A stretch of DNA of 35,376 nucleotides from Candidatus Pacearchaeota archaeon. Its GTDB lineage: Archaea; Nanobdellota; Nanobdellia; Pacearchaeales; GW2011-AR1. The position numbers were made by a program, and so were the translations under genes. The DNA lies in the NCBI GenBank assembly GCA_018221305.1, contig JAAOYK010000029.1, forward strand, positions 1-35,376, given 5' to 3'. The notes beneath the pieces were generated by a model. It ran no database searches. It was not told the origin of the DNA and saw nothing but the letters and a program-made list of their open reading frames with translations. Shown in pieces: positions 6,509 through 25,086 of this stretch; position 1 is the stretch's first letter; every line of letters starts with the position of its first letter.

Positions 6509-9500
6509 CTATTTTCTTTTTCTTCGCAATTTCTTTTCGGTTTCGGCAATCTTTATACGGGTTTTAATAACAGTGTCAGGATTTAGGCTAATACTGTCAA
6601 TACCACATTCAACTAAAAATTGTGCAAAGTCTGGGAAGTCACTTGGTGCTTGACCACAAATACCAATCTTTCGCTTATTCTTTTTTGCTTTAGCAATAAC
6701 TTCTTTTATGAAATCTTTTACTGCCTTATTACGTTCATCATAAATATCACTTACTATCTCTGAATCACGGTCAAGGCCTAAAGTTAATTGTGTCAGATCA
6801 TTACTACCGATTGAAAATCCGTCAAAAACTTTTGAGAACTCGTCAGCAAGGATTACGTTTGCTGGAATTTCGCACATTACATAGATTTGAAGGCCATTTT
6901 TTCCTTTCTTAAGGCCTTGCTTTTTCATGATTTCTATTACCTTTTTGCCCTCATCAACAGTTCGCACAAACGGTAACATGATTTTAACATTTGTCAGGCC
7001 AAACACGTTTCGCACTTTTTTAAAAGCAGCACATTCCAGCTCAAAAGCTTTTTGATATCCTGGTCGATAATAACGAGAAGCACCACGCCAGCCAATCATT
7101 GGATTTCCTTCTTTTGGTTCATAAGTCTTTCCTCCAATAAGGTTTGCGTACTCATTAGATTTAAAATCACTAGTCCTAACAATCACATCTTTTGGATAAA
7201 ATGCAGCAGCGATCATTCCAATACCTTCTGCTAATTTATCAACATAAAACTGCGTTTTGTTTTTATATCCATAAGTTAGTTCGTCAATTTGCTGTTTTAG
7301 TTTTTTGTCTTTAATTTTTTTATAATTAATCAATGCGTTAGGATGTATACGTATATGAGAGTTTATGATAAATTCTTCACGCGCAAGACCAACGCCTTCA
7401 TTAGGAATAAATGATTGTTCAAAAGCTGCCTCAGGGTTACCAATATTCATCATTATTTTTGTCTTTGTCTTTGGAATAGATTTTAAGTTATGTTTTTTTA
7501 CTTTGAATTTTAGGAGTCCCTCATAAACACGACCTTTTTCACCTTCTGCACAGCTCACTGTTATCTTTTTGCCACTCTTAATTTTTTGCGTAGCATTATT
7601 TGTCCCAACAACGCACGGGATCCCTAGTTCTCTGCTGATGATTGCGGCGTGGCAATTGTTAACAAGGATTGGGGTTAATTTTTCAGTAAATACAACATAA
7701 GTATGGTTATCTTCAACAGTTACGTTATAGACATCTCCATAACTTGGCTCATTTAAATTAATTATCCTTTGCATTCTGAAATCACTTTCCAATAACATAT
7801 TTATTTTTGGATCTCCTAGTTCTTTTAGATTTTCTTCAGAAACATACAAATTTTTATCTCTTCTTAATTTCAATTGCCCACTTACATTATTGCCTAATAT
7901 TTGCTTAGCCGAAAAAAATCTTGTTTTGATTATCCTTTCTCTAACATTTCCCTTAACTCTTTTGGTAAATCCTAGTATTTCGTTTAATTTTTCTACAATT
8001 TGGACATTGTGAATATTTCTATTTTTAGTTACTTGTGGAACAATCCCTAATTTTAAACATGCAACAACGACTGCCTCCAATAGATTTATTTTATTAATGT
8101 AGATTTGTATTCGATTGTTATGAAAGGATCCGTCTCCATCTATTACTCCTGCTAAAAAATTATGGGCCAATTCTTCACTTCCTTGTAAAAGTGTAGTTGT
8201 TATTTTTTGTGTTTCTTCATGCATCTCATATGCAATTTGTTTAGAATATAATCTATATGCTGTTGCTTGGCCTTGGACCAGTTTTCCTCTAATGAATCCA
8301 CTGGAAATATTTTTTTCACATCTGGTAAAACACTTGCTGTATACATTGCTCATGCACGCGTGCATATGGTCAATGAACATTTGTTTTTCTGGGACTGTCT
8401 TTTGTATGAATTGTACTTCACCATGTGTTTTACTTCTATAAATTGAACCATCAGTCATTATTCCCCCCAAAAGATATGCTAATTGTTTATCTTTTTCAGT
8501 CGCAATTTGCAATGAAGGAATTTTTTGTGCAATACAAATCATCTCTTTATTTTCAAGCATATTAGAAATCTTAGTATCTACGATATCCCCGCCCCTTAAA
8601 TTTATCATTTTATGGTCTGGAGTAAGTGTTAAGGCATTATCAGTAATCTTTCCAGATTGTGATGCAGAAAGAGTTATTCTTTGAGCTTGCTTTTTCATTA
8701 AGGCAATTATTGGTTTCCACTCCATCTTTTTACTATTTTTGTTGAATGAAAGAGTTAACAAATTTTTATGTCCAAATTCTTCAATTTGTTTAAATGTCAT
8801 GAACCCATTATTTGTTAAGATTTTTGTATTCCCATCAAAGCACGTTCTTCCACCACGATTAGTTACAATGGCTGATGCAATCTTCATAATCGGCTCCCAA
8901 TCTGGGTCTGTCATATCGGTTACTAAAATCTCGCCTTTTTTGAAACCATGAATACCTGACACGTCTTTGATAACATTTGCTTTGCCAACACCTATTTTCA
9001 TGCCAACACTTGCGCCTTCAACCAAAATGCGGCCTTTCTTGCCCATAAAATATTCTTCCAATACATTGATATCTTTTTGACTTTGCACTGTTTCTGGCCG
9101 TGCCTGCACAATGTAGAGCATGCCTGTTCTTCCATCTTTTGCCCATTCCATGTCCATTGGTTTAAACTTACCGGCTTTTTTGGAATAATGATCTTCAATA
9201 ATGCAAGACCATTTTGCAAGTTTTAAAATCTCTTTATCACTAATTACAAAATCTTTTTGGTCTTCTAAACTTACAGCAATATTTTTTACAGGCGAGTTTC
9301 CTTTAGTGCTATAAACCATTTTTATTTTTTTAGAACCAACCTTTTTTTGTAATATTGGCTTAAAACCTTTTTTTAAGGTTGGCTTATGAACATAATATTC
9401 ATCAGGATTAACTGCGCCTTGCACAACATTTTCCCCTAACCCGTATGCTCCAGTGATAAACACTGCATCTTTAAAACCAGACTCAGTGTCAATTGAAAAC

Positions 9501-10114
9501 ATTACACCACTAGACGCCAGATCACTTCTGACCATCTTTTGTACACCAATACTTAAAGCAATATTAAAATGGTCAAAACCTTTATCTTCACGATAAGATA
9601 TTGCTCGATTAGTAAATAATGATGCAAAACATTTTTTACATGCTGTTAGTAATTCACGTTCTCCTGTAATGTTTAGGTATGTTTCTTGTTGACCTGCAAA
9701 ACTTGCATCAGGTAAATCCTCTGCAGTAGCACTACTCCTTACAGCAACATCACAATTTTTTCCATATTCTGCACATAATATTTTGTAAGATCTTTTAATT
9801 TCTATAACGACATCTTCAGGGATTTTTGCAGAAAGGATAGCTTCTCTGACTTTTTTTCCTTTAGCCATTAGATTTCTTGTATCTCTTGTATTTAGGCCTT
9901 TTAAGATTTTTTTGATTTTATCCTTAATTCCTGCTTTTTCAATAAAATGTCTGTATGCATATGCAGTTACTGCAAATCCATTAGGAACCCGAACACCTTT
10001 CTTGCCTAATTCTCTGTACATTTCACCTAAACTTGCATTCTTGCCTCCAGCTAAAGGTACATCGTTAATAGTCAGGTCTTTAAATTTTAGAACGAAAGCT
10101 GTCTTTTTATCCAT
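6509..10114 (-). CDS. ppsA: Phosphoenolpyruvate synthase, intein-containing
   Basis: Converts pyruvate, ATP and water to PEP, AMP and phosphate (gluconeogenic direction). The host protein is 805 residues, the usual PpsA length, interrupted by a 396-residue intein. The N-terminal ATP-binding domain shows VRSSATAEDLPDASFAGQQE at about 125-144. The swivelling domain shows TNRGGRT, then the intein, then CHAAIISRELGIPC, with the phosphorylated His at 822. The C-terminal PEP-binding domain shows VRTSDFKSNEY, GWRGASRYY, VMCEIP, IGSNDLTQLTLGLDRD and the catalytic Cys in GICGQAPSDFPD (about 1153). ATG at 10114 was chosen because AGGGGTG lies just upstream; a GTG at 10120 would add two residues. A TATA box lies at 10148-10157. 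It is divergent from the thioredoxin cluster. A degenerate paralogue starts at 32724. Confidence 0.93.
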   Translation of the reverse strand: MDKKTAFVLKFKDLTINDVPLAGGKNASLGEMYRELGKKGVRVPNGFAVTAYAYRHFIEKAGIKDKIKKILKGLNTRDTRNLMAKGKKVREAILSAKIPEDVVIEIKRSYKILCAEYGKNCDVAVRSSATAEDLPDASFAGQQETYLNITGERELLTACKKCFASLFTNRAISYREDKGFDHFNIALSIGVQKMVRSDLASSGVMFSIDTESGFKDAVFITGAYGLGENVVQGAVNPDEYYVHKPTLKKGFKPILQKKVGSKKIKMVYSTKGNSPVKNIAVSLEDQKDFVISDKEILKLAKWSCIIEDHYSKKAGKFKPMDMEWAKDGRTGMLYIVQARPETVQSQKDINVLEEYFMGKKGRILVEGASVGMKIGVGKANVIKDVSGIHGFKKGEILVTDMTDPDWEPIMKIASAIVTNRGGRTCFDGNTKILTNNGFMTFKQIEEFGHKNLLTLSFNKNSKKMEWKPIIALMKKQAQRITLSASQSGKITDNALTLTPDHKMINLRGGDIVDTKISNMLENKEMICIAQKIPSLQIATEKDKQLAYLLGGIMTDGSIYRSKTHGEVQFIQKTVPEKQMFIDHMHACMSNVYSKCFTRCEKNISSGFIRGKLVQGQATAYRLYSKQIAYEMHEETQKITTTLLQGSEELAHNFLAGVIDGDGSFHNNRIQIYINKINLLEAVVVACLKLGIVPQVTKNRNIHNVQIVEKLNEILGFTKRVKGNVRERIIKTRFFSAKQILGNNVSGQLKLRRDKNLYVSEENLKELGDPKINMLLESDFRMQRIINLNEPSYGDVYNVTVEDNHTYVVFTEKLTPILVNNCHAAIISRELGIPCVVGTNNATQKIKSGKKITVSCAEGEKGRVYEGLLKFKVKKHNLKSIPKTKTKIMMNIGNPEAAFEQSFIPNEGVGLAREEFIINSHIRIHPNALINYKKIKDKKLKQQIDELTYGYKNKTQFYVDKLAEGIGMIAAAFYPKDVIVRTSDFKSNEYANLIGGKTYEPKEGNPMIGWRGASRYYRPGYQKAFELECAAFKKVRNVFGLTNVKIMLPFVRTVDEGKKVIEIMKKQGLKKGKNGLQIYVMCEIPANVILADEFSKVFDGFSIGSNDLTQLTLGLDRDSEIVSDIYDERNKAVKDFIKEVIAKAKKNKRKIGICGQAPSDFPDFAQFLVECGIDSISLNPDTVIKTRIKIAETEKKLRRKRK
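7655..8842 (-). mobile_element. Intein with LAGLIDADG endonuclease inside ppsA
   Basis: This is an in-frame 396-residue insertion whose excision joins TNRGGRT to CHAAI. Splicing motifs: N-terminal block A CFDGNTKIL with nucleophile Cys (residue 425 of the precursor), block B LTPDHK (Thr 498, His 501), block F GDVYNVTVEDNHTYVV, and C-terminal ILVNN followed by Cys+1. The penultimate residue is Asn rather than the usual His. Two endonuclease motifs are intact: YLLGGIMTDGS (about 547-557) and FLAGVIDGDGSF (about 653-664), each with its acidic residue. The homing endonuclease is therefore probably not decayed. The insertion point is one residue before the catalytic His. Inteins in archaeal PEP synthase are known, for example in Methanocaldococcus jannaschii. 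Confidence 0.93.
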
Positions 10115-10147
10115 TTTCACCCCTATATCATAATAAGTACAATCTTA

Positions 10148-18272: not shown

Positions 18273-18692
18273 TTAGATTGAATCTCTAAAGAGCCTTGTA
18301 ACTCCACTTGCTTTTTTAAGGATTTCAAAATTTATTGTGTCTTTTACCTTTATTTGCACCTTTGAACTAGGAGGGTTTTTAATTCTTGAAAAATCTCCAG
18401 ACCCCTGTCCGGTCAGATGTAGTCTATAATAATGTTCTGATTTTAGCAAATCCACTCTTTGTGTAGCGTTGGCTGCTAAATCAACTGTTGAGGTACGCAA
18501 AGCAGGAGAAAGATCTCCCTTTTTATCACTTGCTAATCCTTGATAAGGATTATATATTCCACTGGAGATCTCTAGACTTCTTTCAGCCATATTAGGACTT
18601 GGATCATATGTGCACATAACTATATCTCCTGTTTCTACTCCAAAAGCTCTTTCTAGATCCCCTATAGTATTTAGATTTATTGCATTTTTCAT
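18273..18692 (-). CDS. Orphan protein, 139 aa, first of three minus-strand genes between repeat elements
   Basis: No family recognised. It is a soluble protein: helix NTIGDLERAFGVETGDIV, a polar middle with many Ser/Pro, and a basic C-terminal strand-helix (KVQIKVKDTINFEILKKASG). GGTTTAAAAAGG on the minus strand around 18711-18722 forms a TATA box for a leaderless start. The 40 bases further upstream resemble those upstream of the gene at 19310-19783 although the proteins are unrelated, and repeat element A follows. Downstream, 18225-18262 holds a weak match to the element core (AAGTGGCTAAGC). Confidence 0.6.
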   Translation of the reverse strand: MKNAINLNTIGDLERAFGVETGDIVMCTYDPSPNMAERSLEISSGIYNPYQGLASDKKGDLSPALRTSTVDLAANATQRVDLLKSEHYYRLHLTGQGSGDFSRIKNPPSSKVQIKVKDTINFEILKKASGVTRLFRDSI

Positions 18693-18760
18693 ACTTATTC
18701 CTTGTAATATACCTTTTTAAACCTTCCGGTTGTTGTCACTTCCCAATAGTATCTTTTTAG

Positions 18761-18844
18761 GCTTTTCGAGTGTCCTTTCCCCCTGGATGAGTAAAAATTG
18801 CTCTTTTGGGCGGGCTTAGAATAATATAAGAAAAAGGCACGATC
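18761..18844. repeat. Structured intergenic element A
   Basis: One of four related elements. The 5' arm GCTTTTCGAGTGTCCTTTCC (18761-18780) pairs with AAAGGCACGA (18833-18842): UCG, then bulge AG, then UG, bulge U, CCUUU, giving ten base pairs. The core contains GGGCGGGCTTAG. The 20-base 5' arm is repeated exactly in element B. Confidence 0.6.
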
Positions 18845-18857
18845 TGAATCTTAATAA

Positions 18858-19187
18858 CTAAACTTCAACGAGTTGATTTACTGTTGTTTTCATTAATTCT
18901 GTGTAGGAATCCCAAAAAGGTTTGAGAATCTCTAAGATAAAATAAGAATTAGGTTCGACTCCAAAAGATCTTCCAATTAATCGATACTTTCTATAGTTTT
19001 CTACAAAGTCTTCCTTTCTTCTTGTTAAATCTTTTTCTAATGGCAATTGTGGCTCAATTTCATTTTCCAAAGGCCTCCCGTACTTTTTTAAATGTTGAAT
19101 TGAAACTGAACTATTGATCAGTTTTCCTGATAAAGCACTATGATCCAATCCTTTGTAAAATGCGTTTATTTCTTTGTCTGTTGCCAT
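18858..19187 (-). CDS. Orphan protein, 109 aa, between elements A and B
   Basis: No family recognised. It is a charged, mostly helical soluble protein (LPLEKDLTRRKEDFVENYRKY, then a long C-terminal helix FILEILKPFWDSYTELMKTT). It has no similarity by eye to the neighbouring orphans. The TATA-like AGCTTAAAAGTAT (minus strand, about 19204-19217) overlaps the start of element B's 5' arm, so the gene's promoter and the element are physically joined. The start is leaderless. Confidence 0.55.
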   Translation of the reverse strand: MATDKEINAFYKGLDHSALSGKLINSSVSIQHLKKYGRPLENEIEPQLPLEKDLTRRKEDFVENYRKYRLIGRSFGVEPNSYFILEILKPFWDSYTELMKTTVNQLVEV

Positions 19188-19215
19188 GAAATTTATATGA
19201 GCCCCATACTTTTAA

Positions 19216-19276
19216 GCTTTTCGAGTGTCCTTTCCTTTTGAGTGGGCTAAGCAAATAGAATTAGAGAGGGTGCGAA
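19216..19276. repeat. Structured intergenic element B
   Basis: The shortest family member. The 5' arm (19216-19235) is identical to that of element A. Bases 19220-19223 (TTCG) pair with 19273-19276 (CGAA), and after the bulge AG, 19226-19234 pairs with 19264-19272: 13 pairs in all, four of them wobble on the plus strand. The core is GAGTGGGCTAAG. The 3' arm context AATAGAATTAGAGAGGG matches element C. Confidence 0.65.
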
Positions 19277-19309
19277 TTAATTTAATCATAAAAACACGAG
19301 AAATCATAA

Positions 19310-19783
19310 TTAATCATCATAAGGATTCATTATTTGGTGAAGGCCAATATCATCTTCAGTTACATTAAAACCATATTTATTGATCATTTCTGCCACCTGA
19401 CTTTTCATTTCTAAACCTTTCCTTATCCTAGCAGCATCTCCAGGCATATGACCGCCCCCTGCATGAGATTGTAGACTAATTCCTAAATACTGAGAAGTTA
19501 CTCCTCCGTCTTCTAACCAAAAATCATCTTCGAGAAAAACTAACTTCGTTAAATCTTCTCCAGAACTATGTTGATTAATTTTCTTTCTATGTTCTAAATT
19601 TTCGACAATTGATCCATCTGGAAAAATATAACTCTTTCCCCAATTAGTTGGCTCTTCTACAATAATATATCTCGGATTATTTTCATCGTCATGGCCTGTT
19701 GAACTAGGATTGAGATCAAATGGAGCTTTCTCTAACTGAGTTTCTATTCCTAAAACTAGGTTATAAATTGCTTGAGCTGCCAT
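19310..19783 (-). CDS. Orphan protein, 157 aa, between elements B and C
   Basis: No family recognised. It is an acidic soluble protein with many Asp/Glu, a strand-rich middle (RYIIVEEPTNWGKSYIFPDG, LTKLVFLEDDFWLEDGG) and a Gly/His-rich loop SHAGGGHMPGD that could bind a ligand or metal. The C-terminal region is helical and acidic. GGTTTATAAAGG on the minus strand around 19809-19820 is its TATA box. The upstream 40 bases match those before the gene at 18273-18692. Confidence 0.6.
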   Translation of the reverse strand: MAAQAIYNLVLGIETQLEKAPFDLNPSSTGHDDENNPRYIIVEEPTNWGKSYIFPDGSIVENLEHRKKINQHSSGEDLTKLVFLEDDFWLEDGGVTSQYLGISLQSHAGGGHMPGDAARIRKGLEMKSQVAEMINKYGFNVTEDDIGLHQIMNPYDD

Positions 19784-19850
19784 ACTTTTTTATAGAAAAG
19801 CTACCTTTATAAACCTTCCTATCTGTTACTACTTGCCAGTTGCATAAATA

Positions 19851-20058
19851 GCTTTCTGCGAGCACCCTTAGTAATTAGGCGGGGAAAAAGAGCATCTAAA
19901 ATTGCGTTGAACGTTTGCGATTAAAGAGTTCACTGCTGTTCACAGAAGTTGAAATCTGCAGTGGGGGAAGAAAATTCTGGGGTTATATTAGTTAAAATCT
20001 CTGAACCGGCGGGTCGCTTGAGACATCCCAATAGATTAGGAGGGTGCGCGAAAGAGCC
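19851..20058. repeat. Structured intergenic element C, long form; possible ncRNA
   Basis: The longest member, filling most of the 313-base gap between divergent genes. The 5' arm GCTTTCTGCGAGCACCCT (19851-19868) pairs with 20041-20057: CACCCU/AGGGUG, bulge AG, GCG/CGC, then C/G, UUU/AAA and GC/GC with small bulges, about 15 pairs. The enclosed roughly 170 bases are about 43% GC, well above the surroundings, and hold internal stems such as CACUG...CAGUG with CAGA/UCUG (about 19931-19963). Both ends match element B, so B looks like an internally deleted version or C an expanded one. Confidence 0.6.
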
Positions 20059-20096
20059 ATAAATAAACTTATATAATTCAATTTATTAGATATTTT

Positions 20097-20744
20097 ATGA
20101 GAGAAAAAAAGAAGGAATCTGAAAAACAAAAATATCTTAAGGATTTAAAAATGGGCCTAATTACTGGGGCTAAATCCCATAAATTTCTTCTTAAAAAATA
20201 TGAAAGTAGTAAAGATAGAAGCTCCGACATTAGGAGATTAGATCAAGAAATTTATGAAGCAGAAAAAAATAGAGATCCTAAGGCTATTGGTTATGTTCAG
20301 GCTTTTGCAGCAAAAGAATTAAAAGAAGCTCAAAAAATTGCAGATAGGATTGAAATGAGTGAGAATAGTTACAATAATGAGAATTTATCAATTTCAGCGA
20401 TGGAACATGCTTATGGGGCTATTCAATTGTATAAGGCAATAGGCCAAGATAATAGAAACAGTGTGATAAACAGAGCAACAAAAGTTTTCGGGAAAGTGGC
20501 TGATTTTGATGCAGGTCTTGCTCACAAATTCATGGATAAAAATGTAAATAGGAAAAGAAAACCTTTAGAACATTATTTTGGGATTATTTCATTATTTGGT
20601 TTTGTTTTGGGGGGTTTTTTCTTATCCCCTAATTTAACAGGCAACGCAATTGCAAACTTAACCACTAAAACAACGAGTATAATTGGAGCGGGCTTGTTTA
20701 TTGCAGGGATAGTTGGAACATATTTCTGGATTAAGAAGAAATGA
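20097..20744 (+). CDS. C-terminally membrane-anchored coiled-coil protein
   Basis: A 215-residue protein. Residues 1-150 are hydrophilic and helical (MREKKKESEKQKYLKDLKMG, IYEAEKNRDPKAIGYVQAFA), probably a cytoplasmic coiled-coil. The C-terminal about 60 residues hold two TM helices joined by a short loop with LSPNLTGNAIANLTTKTTS. This cassette (ISLFGFVLGGFFLSPNLTGN ... GAGLFIAGIVGTYFW) recurs at the C-termini of many DPANN proteins, from memory. The gene lies divergently from the orphan at 19310, between repeat elements C and D. TATA-like ACTTATATAATT precedes it. Function unknown. Confidence 0.7.
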   Translation: MREKKKESEKQKYLKDLKMGLITGAKSHKFLLKKYESSKDRSSDIRRLDQEIYEAEKNRDPKAIGYVQAFAAKELKEAQKIADRIEMSENSYNNENLSISAMEHAYGAIQLYKAIGQDNRNSVINRATKVFGKVADFDAGLAHKFMDKNVNRKRKPLEHYFGIISLFGFVLGGFFLSPNLTGNAIANLTTKTTSIIGAGLFIAGIVGTYFWIKKK

Positions 20745-20751
20745 TTTTCTA

Positions 20752-20835
20752 GCGCACCTTCTCCTGGGGGGGCGGGGGGATGGCCAGATTAGAGATTTTA
20801 ACCTAGAGTTAGTTTAGAATTTTCGGGCGGGGCGC
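20752..20835. repeat. Structured intergenic element D
   Basis: The 5' arm GCGCACCTT (20752-20760) pairs with GGGGCGC (20829-20835): GCG/CGC, bulge CA, CCUU/GGGG. A G-rich core GGGGGGGCGGGGGG follows the 5' arm at the same distance as GGGCGGG in B and C. Sequence similarity is weaker than among A-C, but the geometry is the same. Confidence 0.5.
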
Positions 20836-21963: not shown

Positions 21964-23460
21964 CTACTTTTTTTTGTTTTTACTTTTTTTTGTTTTCTTT
22001 TTTGTTTGTTTTCCTAATTTTTCCCCGTGTTTTAGTTTAACTAATTCAGAGCCATATTTTATTGCGTCGTCTAAACGATTCAAAACTTCTGGAAAAGGAG
22101 ATAAAGGATTTGAGCTTCGAGATTTCATATACCAGTCAGGAGGTACGTTCAAAGTAGAACTCCTGATTTCACACATAGAATTAATAAAACTTCTACAAAG
22201 TTTTGTATGAGCAGACCTAGGCCGCCCCCCTTCGTCAGATCCAGGAAGATCCTTTCTTGGAACTGAACAAATATGACCAAGACAAATAGGAGATTTAAAC
22301 AAGGTTAATTTACATCCATCAAAATTATGATAATTACAGTCACCATTAGAGTTACTAGAAATTTTTAAATGAGCTTTATTTTTTATTGCTTCAAAACTTT
22401 GGACTGCTAAGATTTGAGATGGAACACCAGTTTTAAAATAGTCCCTTGTGCAACAACGAGGTTCACTTTGCTCGCATTTATTTATGCATGCATCTCTTGT
22501 TAGTTCTTGAAGTATTGCATCTAGTGTTCTGGTTCTAAAAGAATAATCAAGAACCATGTTTCCTGTTTCAAATTTTTGTTCTGGATCTTTTTTTCTTATT
22601 GTGTTTAAAGCTACTGCGTTAACAAAATCTTTTATTCCTGTATCTAACTTTTTTGGATTTTGAAAAATTTCTTTGTAAAGATTTAATGATCTTTTTGCGC
22701 GTTTTAATCTTTTGTGATAATCAAAGCGCCCTTTTTTTATATCTTTAATATCATCACTACATATCCCATACCTTCTCAAGAATGATTGCATTAACTCAGA
22801 ATGGGGATTACCTAATCCTGTTGCAATATTTTTCATTGTTGCATCTCCTAAAGCTGTAAGTATCTCTTTTAAGTTTGGATTTTTTTTATCTTTTAAACCG
22901 TCTCTTAAACGAGCGACCTCTTTGTATGATTTAAGATCACGATAAGGATCGTGAATTAAATTTTGGATCATCGCACTTGGTATTTGGGCCTCTTCTATTG
23001 CAGATTCGTCTCCTTTCCTTAATCTTTTTCTTAAACCTTGCAAATTATTATAAACTCTTTTTATTCCTTTATCGCCAAGATCTGCAGCAGTTTTTACAAC
23101 AGCTTGATACTGCTCTTTTGTCTCTACATTGTCTGCCAGACGTTCAAGGGTCTTAAACTTTCTTGAAGTCGGAAGCTGGACAGCTCTTACATGGGCTAAT
23201 GCAAGCTGTGCATCATGACGATATGCTTCTGGCTCAACTTTTTGCCTGATGTATGCTGAAAAGTCTGTTACAAACGAGTCATAATCTGCGTGTGTTGGCT
23301 TGTACCCTGTATCTTTAAAATCTAATAATTCATAAGTATCTATCAGAATTTCATTTGCTAAAGATTTTCTCTGAGTTTTTGACGAAGAATTAAAAGTTTT
23401 TTCAAAATCAGCTATTGTGACAGTTTCTTCTAATTGTGGTTTTTCTTGCAATGTTTTCAT
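21964..23460 (-). CDS. Cys-rich paralogue 1, 498 aa
   Basis: Unknown function. The N-terminal about 95 residues (MKTLQEKPQLEETVTIADFE, IRQKVEPEAYRHDAQ) are about 93% identical to the paralogue upstream; the helical middle (100-320) is diverged. A Cys/His cluster at about 325-405 is conserved: CINKC...PRCC, GDCNYHNFDGCKLTLFKSP, then CLGHICS. The CxxxC, CC and GC-L...C..H.C pattern resembles zinc- or iron-chelating YkgJ-type clusters, an inference from spacing only. The last 25 residues are almost all Lys/Thr/Asn. Predicted cytoplasmic, with no signal or TM. It is separated by 132 bases from the second copy, which has the same upstream sequence and so probably its own promoter. Confidence 0.75.
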   Translation of the reverse strand: MKTLQEKPQLEETVTIADFEKTFNSSSKTQRKSLANEILIDTYELLDFKDTGYKPTHADYDSFVTDFSAYIRQKVEPEAYRHDAQLALAHVRAVQLPTSRKFKTLERLADNVETKEQYQAVVKTAADLGDKGIKRVYNNLQGLRKRLRKGDESAIEEAQIPSAMIQNLIHDPYRDLKSYKEVARLRDGLKDKKNPNLKEILTALGDATMKNIATGLGNPHSELMQSFLRRYGICSDDIKDIKKGRFDYHKRLKRAKRSLNLYKEIFQNPKKLDTGIKDFVNAVALNTIRKKDPEQKFETGNMVLDYSFRTRTLDAILQELTRDACINKCEQSEPRCCTRDYFKTGVPSQILAVQSFEAIKNKAHLKISSNSNGDCNYHNFDGCKLTLFKSPICLGHICSVPRKDLPGSDEGGRPRSAHTKLCRSFINSMCEIRSSTLNVPPDWYMKSRSSNPLSPFPEVLNRLDDAIKYGSELVKLKHGEKLGKQTKKKTKKSKNKKK

Positions 23461-23592: not shown

Positions 23593-25086
23593 CTACTTTT
23601 TTGTTTTTGAATTTCGTTTTGTTTTCTTTTTTGCTTGTTTTCTTAATCTTTCGTGTTTTAGTTTAACTATTTCAGAGCCAAACTTTATTGCAGAATCTAA
23701 GTGAGTTAAAACTCCTGGAAAATGATACGTAGGGTCTGCGCCTTGCGATCTTTTAAGCCAGTCAGTTGCTAAATCTAAAGTACAACCTCTAAACCCGCTC
23801 ATGGCTTGCAAAAAATAATAATAAGGCTGATCATGAGAATATTGTAAGTTTTTATCATCTTCAAGGCCTGGAAGGTTTTCTCTTGGCGCACTGCAAAGGT
23901 GGCCCATACAAAGCGGGGATTTGAACAAAGTCAATTTGCATCCACCAACATTATGATAATTACATTCGCCATCATCCCTTGTAGAAATCCTTAAATGAAC
24001 TTTATTTTTTAGTGCTTCAAGTTGCTGTATTGCGAGAATCTGAGAAGAAACTGATCTATTAAAATAATTAGCGTCACAGCAACGAGGATCCTCGTGTTTA
24101 CATTTATTAATACATGCATCTCTTGTTAATTCCCGAAGTATGACGTCAAGTTTTCTTGTCCTAAAAGAATAATCTACAATTATGTTTCCAGTTTCAAATT
24201 TTTGTTCTGGATCTTTTTTTCTTAAAGTGTTAAGAGCTATTGCATTAACAAGATTGTTTATTCCAGATTTCATATCTTTCGATTTGCCAAAAATTTCTTT
24301 ATAGTGTTTAAGAGAAGTGTTTGCAGGCTTTAACTTTTCATGATAACTAAAAGATCCTTTTTTTAGTTGACGGAAATCATTACAAGATAATCCATACTTT
24401 CCTAAGAAAGGGCCCATAAAAGGTGAATCTGGATTATTTAGGCCTTTTGCAATATTTTGCATTACTACATCTCCTACAGCAGTAAGAATCTCACTTAAAC
24501 TCGAATTTTTTTTATCTTTAAAAGCATCGCTGAAATAATAAGGGTTTTTAATTGAATCAAAAAGTCTGTGCGAATTTGTAATCATCTCCTGGACAATATG
24601 GCCTGGGATCTGGGCCTCTTTGATTGCAGATTCGTCTCCTTTTCTTAATCTTACCCTTAAGCTTTTTAATTTATTATAAACTCTTCTACTTCCTTTATCG
24701 CCAAGATCTGCAGCAGTTTTTACAACAGCTTCATACTGCTTTTTTGTCCCTACATTGTCTGCCATATGTTCAAGTGTTTTAAACGCCTTTGAGTTTGGAG
24801 TTTGAAGGGCACGTACATGAGCTAGTGCACGCTGTGCGTCATGACGATATGCTTCTGGCTCAACTTTTTGCCTGATGTATGCTGAAAAGTCTGTTACAAA
24901 CGAGTCATAATCTGTGTGTGTTGGCTTGTACCCTGTATCCTTAAAATCTAATAATTCATAAGTATCTGTCAGAATCTCTTTTGCTAAAGATTTTCTCTGA
25001 GTTTTTGGAGAAGAATTAAAAGTTTTTTCAAAATCAGCTATTGTGACAGTTTCTTCTAATTGTGGGTTTTCTTGCAATGTTTTCAT
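23593..25086 (-). CDS. Cys-rich paralogue 2, 497 aa
   Basis: Tandem paralogue of the gene at 21964. The same order is seen: a nearly identical N-terminal 95 residues, a helical middle with conserved GDKG, LRKGDESAI and ALNTLRKKDPEQKFETGN, the cluster CINKC...PRCC, GECNYHNVGGCKLTLFKSP and CMGHLCS, and a Lys-rich tail ending KRNSKTKK. All cluster Cys and the central His are kept between copies while surrounding residues differ. This argues that the metal- or disulfide-binding cluster is under selection. No enzyme family is recognised. The start ATG is shared with the other copy. The tRNA-Val gene begins 154 bases upstream on the other strand. Confidence 0.75.
   Translation of the reverse strand: MKTLQENPQLEETVTIADFEKTFNSSPKTQRKSLAKEILTDTYELLDFKDTGYKPTHTDYDSFVTDFSAYIRQKVEPEAYRHDAQRALAHVRALQTPNSKAFKTLEHMADNVGTKKQYEAVVKTAADLGDKGSRRVYNKLKSLRVRLRKGDESAIKEAQIPGHIVQEMITNSHRLFDSIKNPYYFSDAFKDKKNSSLSEILTAVGDVVMQNIAKGLNNPDSPFMGPFLGKYGLSCNDFRQLKKGSFSYHEKLKPANTSLKHYKEIFGKSKDMKSGINNLVNAIALNTLRKKDPEQKFETGNIIVDYSFRTRKLDVILRELTRDACINKCKHEDPRCCDANYFNRSVSSQILAIQQLEALKNKVHLRISTRDDGECNYHNVGGCKLTLFKSPLCMGHLCSAPRENLPGLEDDKNLQYSHDQPYYYFLQAMSGFRGCTLDLATDWLKRSQGADPTYHFPGVLTHLDSAIKFGSEIVKLKHERLRKQAKKKTKRNSKTKK

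Follow-up and report, generated by a model that had tools for sequence, protein, structure and literature searches.

What separates the small orphan genes of a DPANN archaeon, and whether the separating elements belong to a system of gene exchange, is the question raised by the window analyzed here, that is, the whole stretch of 35,376 nucleotides, which is contig C8 of its own genome (G000), a 1.26-Mb, 61%-complete archaeal MAG. The gene content of the window, which includes an L16/L10e ribosomal protein and PPDK, is chromosomal. An earlier note had described four intergenic elements, A to D, as sharing a long-range helix with a two-base bulge and as separating unrelated genes in the manner of integron cassettes with attC sites. 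All four elements are present where they had been placed, and we interpret them, with a probability of about 0.75, as degenerate relics of a family of structured sites for recombination, which lie between exchangeable gene units in the integron-like arrays of DPANN archaea of the same class. The cassette idea is supported at the level of the family, with its arrays, recombinase and complementary unit ends, whereas that of four intact attC-like sites does not. The window elements are integron-like and not a demonstrated integron, a wording that we prefer because the recombinase of the relatives lacks the IntI-specific insertion. All the data come from MAGs, and recombination is read from sequence alone.

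Table 1. Gene units and elements of the window, in order of position
Feature	Positions	Strand	Remarks
Gene of the first unit, 139 aa, orphan	18273..18692	-	No Pfam match; no relative in the contigs searched with close-relative patterns
A, left arm	18755..18780	+	25/26 identical to that of B; no other copy in the genome
A, right arm	18806..18862	+	GGGCGGG core, TTGGGCGGGCTTAGAATAATATAAGAAAAAGGCACGATC
Gene of unit A-B, 109 aa, orphan	18858..19187	-	No Pfam match; marginal matches only (E 0.008-0.009) in 137 relatives
B, left arm	19210..19235	+	The - strand here also bears the 109-aa gene's TATA box
B, right arm	19240..19278	+	Homologous to the right arm of A
Gene of unit B-C, 157 aa, orphan	19310..19783	-	No match in the other genomes of the 137 or in viral contigs
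C, left arm, end of the 157-aa unit	19848..19884	+	Similarity to G010 C16 and C14
C, truncated attC-like core	19901..19956	+	Matches intact sites G010_C9, C10, C16a, G000_C37, C22, C7
C, right arm, start of the 215-aa unit	19963..20057	+	Matches in G047 and G006; pairs with D
Gene of unit C-D, 215 aa	20097..20744	+	C-terminal membrane domain common to many relatives' proteins
D, left arm, end of the 215-aa unit	20748..20835	+	No site core after it

The intergenic regions that contain A to D have a GC content of 0.34-0.47, against mostly 0.08-0.29 in other intergenic stretches, the few others near 0.34 appearing to be coding. As previously described, A and B have a common 5' arm, which spans 26 nt, and B and C a common 3' context; overall, A and B align at 70% identity over 93 nt. 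Ordinary promoter sequence of the leaderless archaeal type makes up part of this A/B similarity, as it does of the similarity in front of the 139- and 157-aa genes. The regions upstream of these two genes do match, as the note had it, but what they have in common are ordinary TATA promoters (GGAAGGTTTAWAAAGGTA, about -35 to -20) with a nearly identical core, and the common A/B arm likewise takes in the TATA box of the 109-aa gene. Leaderless-type promoters, with TATA boxes about 25-35 nt before the ATG, are found at 18711-18728, 19802-19819 and 19207-19220.

The description of the three minus-strand frames (139, 109 and 157 aa) as orphans is borne out in that Pfam has no match for any of them. 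The C-terminal ~70 residues of the 215-aa protein (..LTGNAIANL..) recur at the C-terminus of otherwise different proteins in 40 of the 137 relatives, with up to 8 copies per genome; this membrane segment may be a shared anchoring or sorting domain. Elsewhere in the window, the pyruvate phosphate dikinase-like gene (6509-10120; PPDK_N and PEP-utiliser domains) is split by an intein with a LAGLIDADG domain, and two adjacent genes of ~497 aa (21964-23460 and 23593-25086; no confident Pfam match) have almost identical upstream promoter regions, suggesting a recent duplication.

The bulged helix fared less well than the elements themselves. Compared with dinucleotide shuffles (MFE, + strand), the elements do not fold better than expected (z of -0.6 for A, +1.3 for B, -1.5 for C and -0.7 for D), and the plan of outer stem, 2-nt bulge and inner stem is equalled or bettered by 20% of the shuffles of A, 1% of those of B, 13% of those of C and 88% of those of D, and so holds up for B only. 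When the proposed structure is imposed on a covariance model built from A and B, C and D both go undetected in the window, and no further copies turn up in the own genome. The UG/UG pairs proposed for B exist on the + strand, but the other strand has CA/CA at this point. The likely reason for the apparent bulge is that every element is a junction, at which one gene unit ends and another begins; arms derived from two different units would explain both the bulge and the wobble pairs of the proposed helix. Several other leads were discarded along the way: a DNA search of the own genome with full-length A returned only B and a chance match inside a coding gene on C54; the small open reading frames in A and B that end in GKDTRKA do not keep their frame across the homologous stretch and do not represent coding conservation; identity with C/D-box or other known RNAs has no Rfam support; and a viral origin was set aside, with no viral relative of the 157-aa protein and the 20-nt core motif in no viral contig.

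In relatives, open reading frames contain most of the weak A+B model matches that we checked, and no more than two matches, both intergenic (L055 and L075) and both in the same-genus genome G010 (archaeon CSMAG_1761), led on. At both, similarity extends far past the match, and DNA searches with the two loci return several copies in G010 and in G000 and reach elements A (E 5.8e-5) and C (E 3.1e-5) of the window. The copies define a core site of 75-150 nt with AAC/GTT ends, two strongly covarying helices (P1 and P2) and a variable hairpin. In the seed alignment (A5, 8 copies), the core opens with AAC in most copies and closes with GTTA, 6 of 16 base pairs are changed on both sides, and 92% of the cells are paired, compared with 24-53% when slid; in 64 aligned sites, the alignment of which was fitted to the model, 94% of the cells are paired and 13 of the 16 pairs have changes on both sides. 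Relative to shuffles, the median fold z of the sites is -3.3 and -2.6 on the two strands. No Rfam family matches the sites or the elements. The model R2, built from the eight seed copies, has matches in 39 of the 137 relatives (E<=0.01) and in 55 of 371 genomes of the phylum (E<=1e-5), spread over many families of the class; site boundaries in several of the tests were taken from model hits. AAC and GTT are present in nearly all sites, and the full 7-mers RYYYAAC ... GTTRRRY in part of the sites only.

Two further features of the site-bearing regions deserve mention. A GGGTGGG motif, possibly a G-quadruplex or a protein site, is found in both arms on the same strand (for example, L188:1862 and L192:3372 downstream and L183 upstream), an arrangement that would bring the G-rich loops opposite one another in the paired arms. 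Furthermore, three contig ends of G010 (L132, start of C10; L134, end of C14; L133, start of C16) have in common ~140 nt from AATAAGAAAGAGCGCGATCTG in the right arm, with one predecessor carrying a site and the other lacking it, a pattern suggestive of variation between strains at the boundary of a unit.

Set against this family, the window elements are incomplete. An R2 search finds no intact site in the window: A and B consist of left and right arms without a core between them, C keeps half a core, and D is a single arm. Three intact sites are present elsewhere in the own genome (C37:52586, C22:1371 and C7:10152), each of them single and none in an array. Over 57 nt, the right arm of A shares 79% identity with the downstream region of a G010 site (E 5.8e-5), with further matches to the downstream regions of two G010 sites (78% over 60 nt, E 1e-6; 70% over 77 nt, E 2e-5). 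The right arm of B resembles, as judged by eye, the downstream region of G010_C14 and gives no significant match when searched alone against the family loci; B is assigned to the family because it is homologous to A. The left arm of C is 65% identical over 80 nt to a stretch that extends into a G010 C16 site (E 0.008) and 78% identical over 55 nt to a stretch 392 nt beyond the G010 C14 site (E 5.8e-5). Its core runs from ATTGCGTTGAAC (AAC at 19910-19912) through the 5' arm of P1 (GCGATTAAAG) to CTGTTCACAGAAGTT (GTT at 19938-19940); the interior and the 3' arm of P1 are absent, and R2 yields a weak partial match only. Accordingly, C has the two ends of a site, ATTGCGTTGAACGTTTGCGATTAAAG and CTGTTCACAGAAGTT, with the interior lost, and next to them comes a right arm known from other genomes: it is 72% identical over 108 nt to an arm in G047 that is preceded by half a site at the end of a contig (E 7.9e-9) and 70% identical over 107 nt to the arm following a G006 site (E 8e-6). 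The left arm of D is 74% identical over 53 nt to the arm immediately upstream of a G047 site (E 9e-4). The earlier statement that AAC and GTT are missing at the arm ends requires qualification: the relatives' sites do end in these triplets, and both also occur inside C.

The association of these matches with sites was assessed by BLAST (E<=0.02) in 525 kb of relatives' DNA, 12.5% of which lies within 400 nt of a site. Matches near a site (<=400 nt) make up 2/2 for A, 8/9 for C and 1/1 for D, and the ninth C match comes directly after half a site, the contig ending there; matches at or beside sites for A, C and D together are therefore 12/12, counting the one beside the site half. For 12 control intergenic stretches, the corresponding figure is 13 of 100 matches.

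Many relatives contain arrays in which two or more attC-like sites succeed one another at distances below 4 kb and in one orientation; the window holds degenerate pieces only. Same-orientation arrays with genes between the sites and a spacing of 0.5-3 kb are found in G094, G079, G019, G047, G059, G039, G087, G108 and G053, with six sites within 10 kb in G094 and four on C28 of G079, the orientation of a site being ambiguous in that the box triplets are palindromic. If the units move like integron cassettes, the GTT-side box of one site and the AAC-side box of the next are parts of a single unit, and complementarity between them is to be expected. Indeed, the right box of a site is complementary to the left box of the next at 4.49 of 6 variable positions, as against 2.66 for its own left box, 2.40 for that of the previous site and 2.64 for any site (p 5e-5; 0 of 20,000 permutations reached the observed value). 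The arms beyond the boxes follow the same neighbor pattern (17.4 vs 13.5 and 13.3, p 5e-5), as illustrated by rows in L176 and L180, with GTTAAACTC at one site and GAGTTTAAC at the next. Pairing within an element was accordingly rejected as the main signal, given that the pairing runs between neighboring sites. We regard this unit-end complementarity as the strongest evidence in the present analysis, all the more as it involves no assumption on the recombinase; complementarity of the two ends of one and the same unit is what characterizes cassettes of the integron type. Within the window, D and C are complementary across the 215-aa gene, the former by its left and the latter by its right arm (inverted repeat I9; z 4.3, 0/200 shuffles), as expected of one unit, and no other pair of arms in or between A to D, including A-B and B-C, is significant in the same shuffle test.

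With respect to the enzyme, the integron-integrase model TIGR02249 detects tyrosine recombinases in 15 of 16 site-bearing genomes, all below the cut-off, and its strong matches miss the IntI-specific insertion (positions about 184-236 unmatched). In a phylogenetic tree, an XerA clade (n=10, at most one per genome, no site nearby) is separated from 13 other recombinases with support of 100/99. Ten of these 13 are encoded within about 3 kb of a site, on the same side and on the same strand, compared with none of the 10 members of the XerA clade (Fisher p 3.6e-4); for the other three, a contig edge lies 0.1-1.1 kb away on that side. The catalytic R, K, HxxR, H and Y are conserved in the alignment of the array recombinases. 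One of them, searched against solved structures, is closest to XerA (4a8e, 5hxy), aligning with XerA 4a8e in one stretch and with IntI4 2a3v in two, and the XerA_Arch model NF040815 gives a match as well. No array-clade recombinase was found in the 61%-complete own genome, whose C2 recombinase groups with XerA. Read in reverse orientation, the array layout is that of a classical integron with a divergent recombinase gene.

From these observations, a mechanism can be proposed by analogy with integrons. An intact site consists of a short core, foldable as a single strand (AAC ... P1, P2, variable hairpin ... GTT) and set between two longer arms, and a gene unit extends from one site, whose GTT-side tail and arm it includes, to the following site, of which it includes the arm and the AAC box. 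The tyrosine recombinase encoded at the end of the array would exchange strands in the AAC/GTT boxes of such folded, probably single-stranded substrates, so that a unit could be excised as a circle in which its two ends are reunited, and then inserted at another folded site. Under this scheme, the order 139-aa gene, A, 109-aa gene, B, 157-aa gene, C, 215-aa gene, D would represent a decayed stretch of an array, pointing to past activity of the system in this strain.

Alternative explanations of the elements have to be weighed against the same data. That A to D are MITE-like or IS-derived repeats, short non-autonomous elements with inverted ends that lie between genes and have no relation to cassette exchange, would agree with the dispersed intergenic copies with inverted arms, several of which lie between convergent genes, and with the location of several copies at contig ends, as is usual for repeats. 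We nevertheless consider this unlikely, given that the arrays are uniform in orientation and have a recombinase at one end, and that complementarity joins neighboring sites across genes instead of the two ends of a single element. Structured RNAs, or leader or terminator RNAs, forming a family transcribed between the genes would likewise exhibit covarying helices, a raised GC content in an AT-rich genome and better folding than shuffles, the latter being observed on both strands; that the two strands fold about equally, that the arms pair across the neighboring gene, that Rfam offers no matching family, and that one would not expect an RNA to have AAC/GTT ends and a recombinase linked to it make this explanation very improbable. 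Neither MITEs nor structured RNAs account for the pairing of the end of one site with the end of the next.

The remaining alternative, which we rate as the least probable of the three, is that the similarities within the window reflect promoters and chance, A and B being a duplicated promoter region and C and D coincidental GC-rich spacers. The TATA box in the A/B arm, the common core promoter of the 139- and 157-aa genes, the weak outcome of the fold and plan tests and the failure of the A+B model to recover C and D are all compatible with such coincidence. It is difficult to reconcile, however, with the far greater frequency at which A, C and D, relative to the controls, match the family at its sites, with the presence of the right arm of C in another genus and with the complementarity between C and D.

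The interpretation of A to D as degenerate recombination sites extends to a broader proposal, towards which we incline with less assurance, namely that a distinct integron-like system is widespread in the DPANN class, with XerA-related recombinases devoid of the IntI insertion, three-way-junction sites, long paired arms and units in either orientation. What defines integrons is IntI with its extra domain, and this domain is believed to be required for folded single-strand sites. If the proposal is correct, cassette capture does not need IntI, and a Xer-like cassette system without the extra domain would put that view to a direct test and bear on the origin of integrons. DPANN archaea, which combine very small genomes with many orphan genes, would gain a concrete route for gene gain and exchange that would explain much of the orphan-gene turnover in these tiny genomes. 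The site family supplies a search model for such arrays.

Ghaly et al. (2022; PMC9668308) reported archaeal integrons with true IntI and attC sites, among them attC sites in Nanoarchaeota, and some of the family sites described here may already have been called attC (cf. PMC9668308). In the open-access literature surveyed, we found no report of a non-IntI recombinase tied to such arrays. The arrays resemble integrons in the small gene units between structured, AAC/GTT-ended sites, in the tyrosine recombinase at the array end, in the complementary unit ends, as if each cassette carried its own box halves, and in the orphan genes; moreover, some of the family arrays without a recombinase resemble CALINs. 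They differ from integrons in that the linked recombinase lacks the IntI-specific insertion, in that no attI has been identified, and in that the genes lie in both orientations, a feature noted by inspection of the relatives and unlike most integron arrays; unlike integron attC, the sites have an extra covarying helix and hairpin, resembling a three-way junction, and long complementary arms past the boxes. With XerA/dif and the pdif-type Xer modules, the arrays share the recombinase fold, the nearest solved structures being XerA, and the NF040815 match, but the XerA clade, none of whose members is encoded near a site, does not include the array recombinases. Furthermore, dif is a 28-bp duplex site, in contrast to the long, foldable inverted structures of the present family. 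Like MITEs, the sites are short, intergenic, multi-copy and flanked by inverted arms, and they are set apart from MITEs by their order in arrays, the linked recombinase and the complementarity between neighboring sites.
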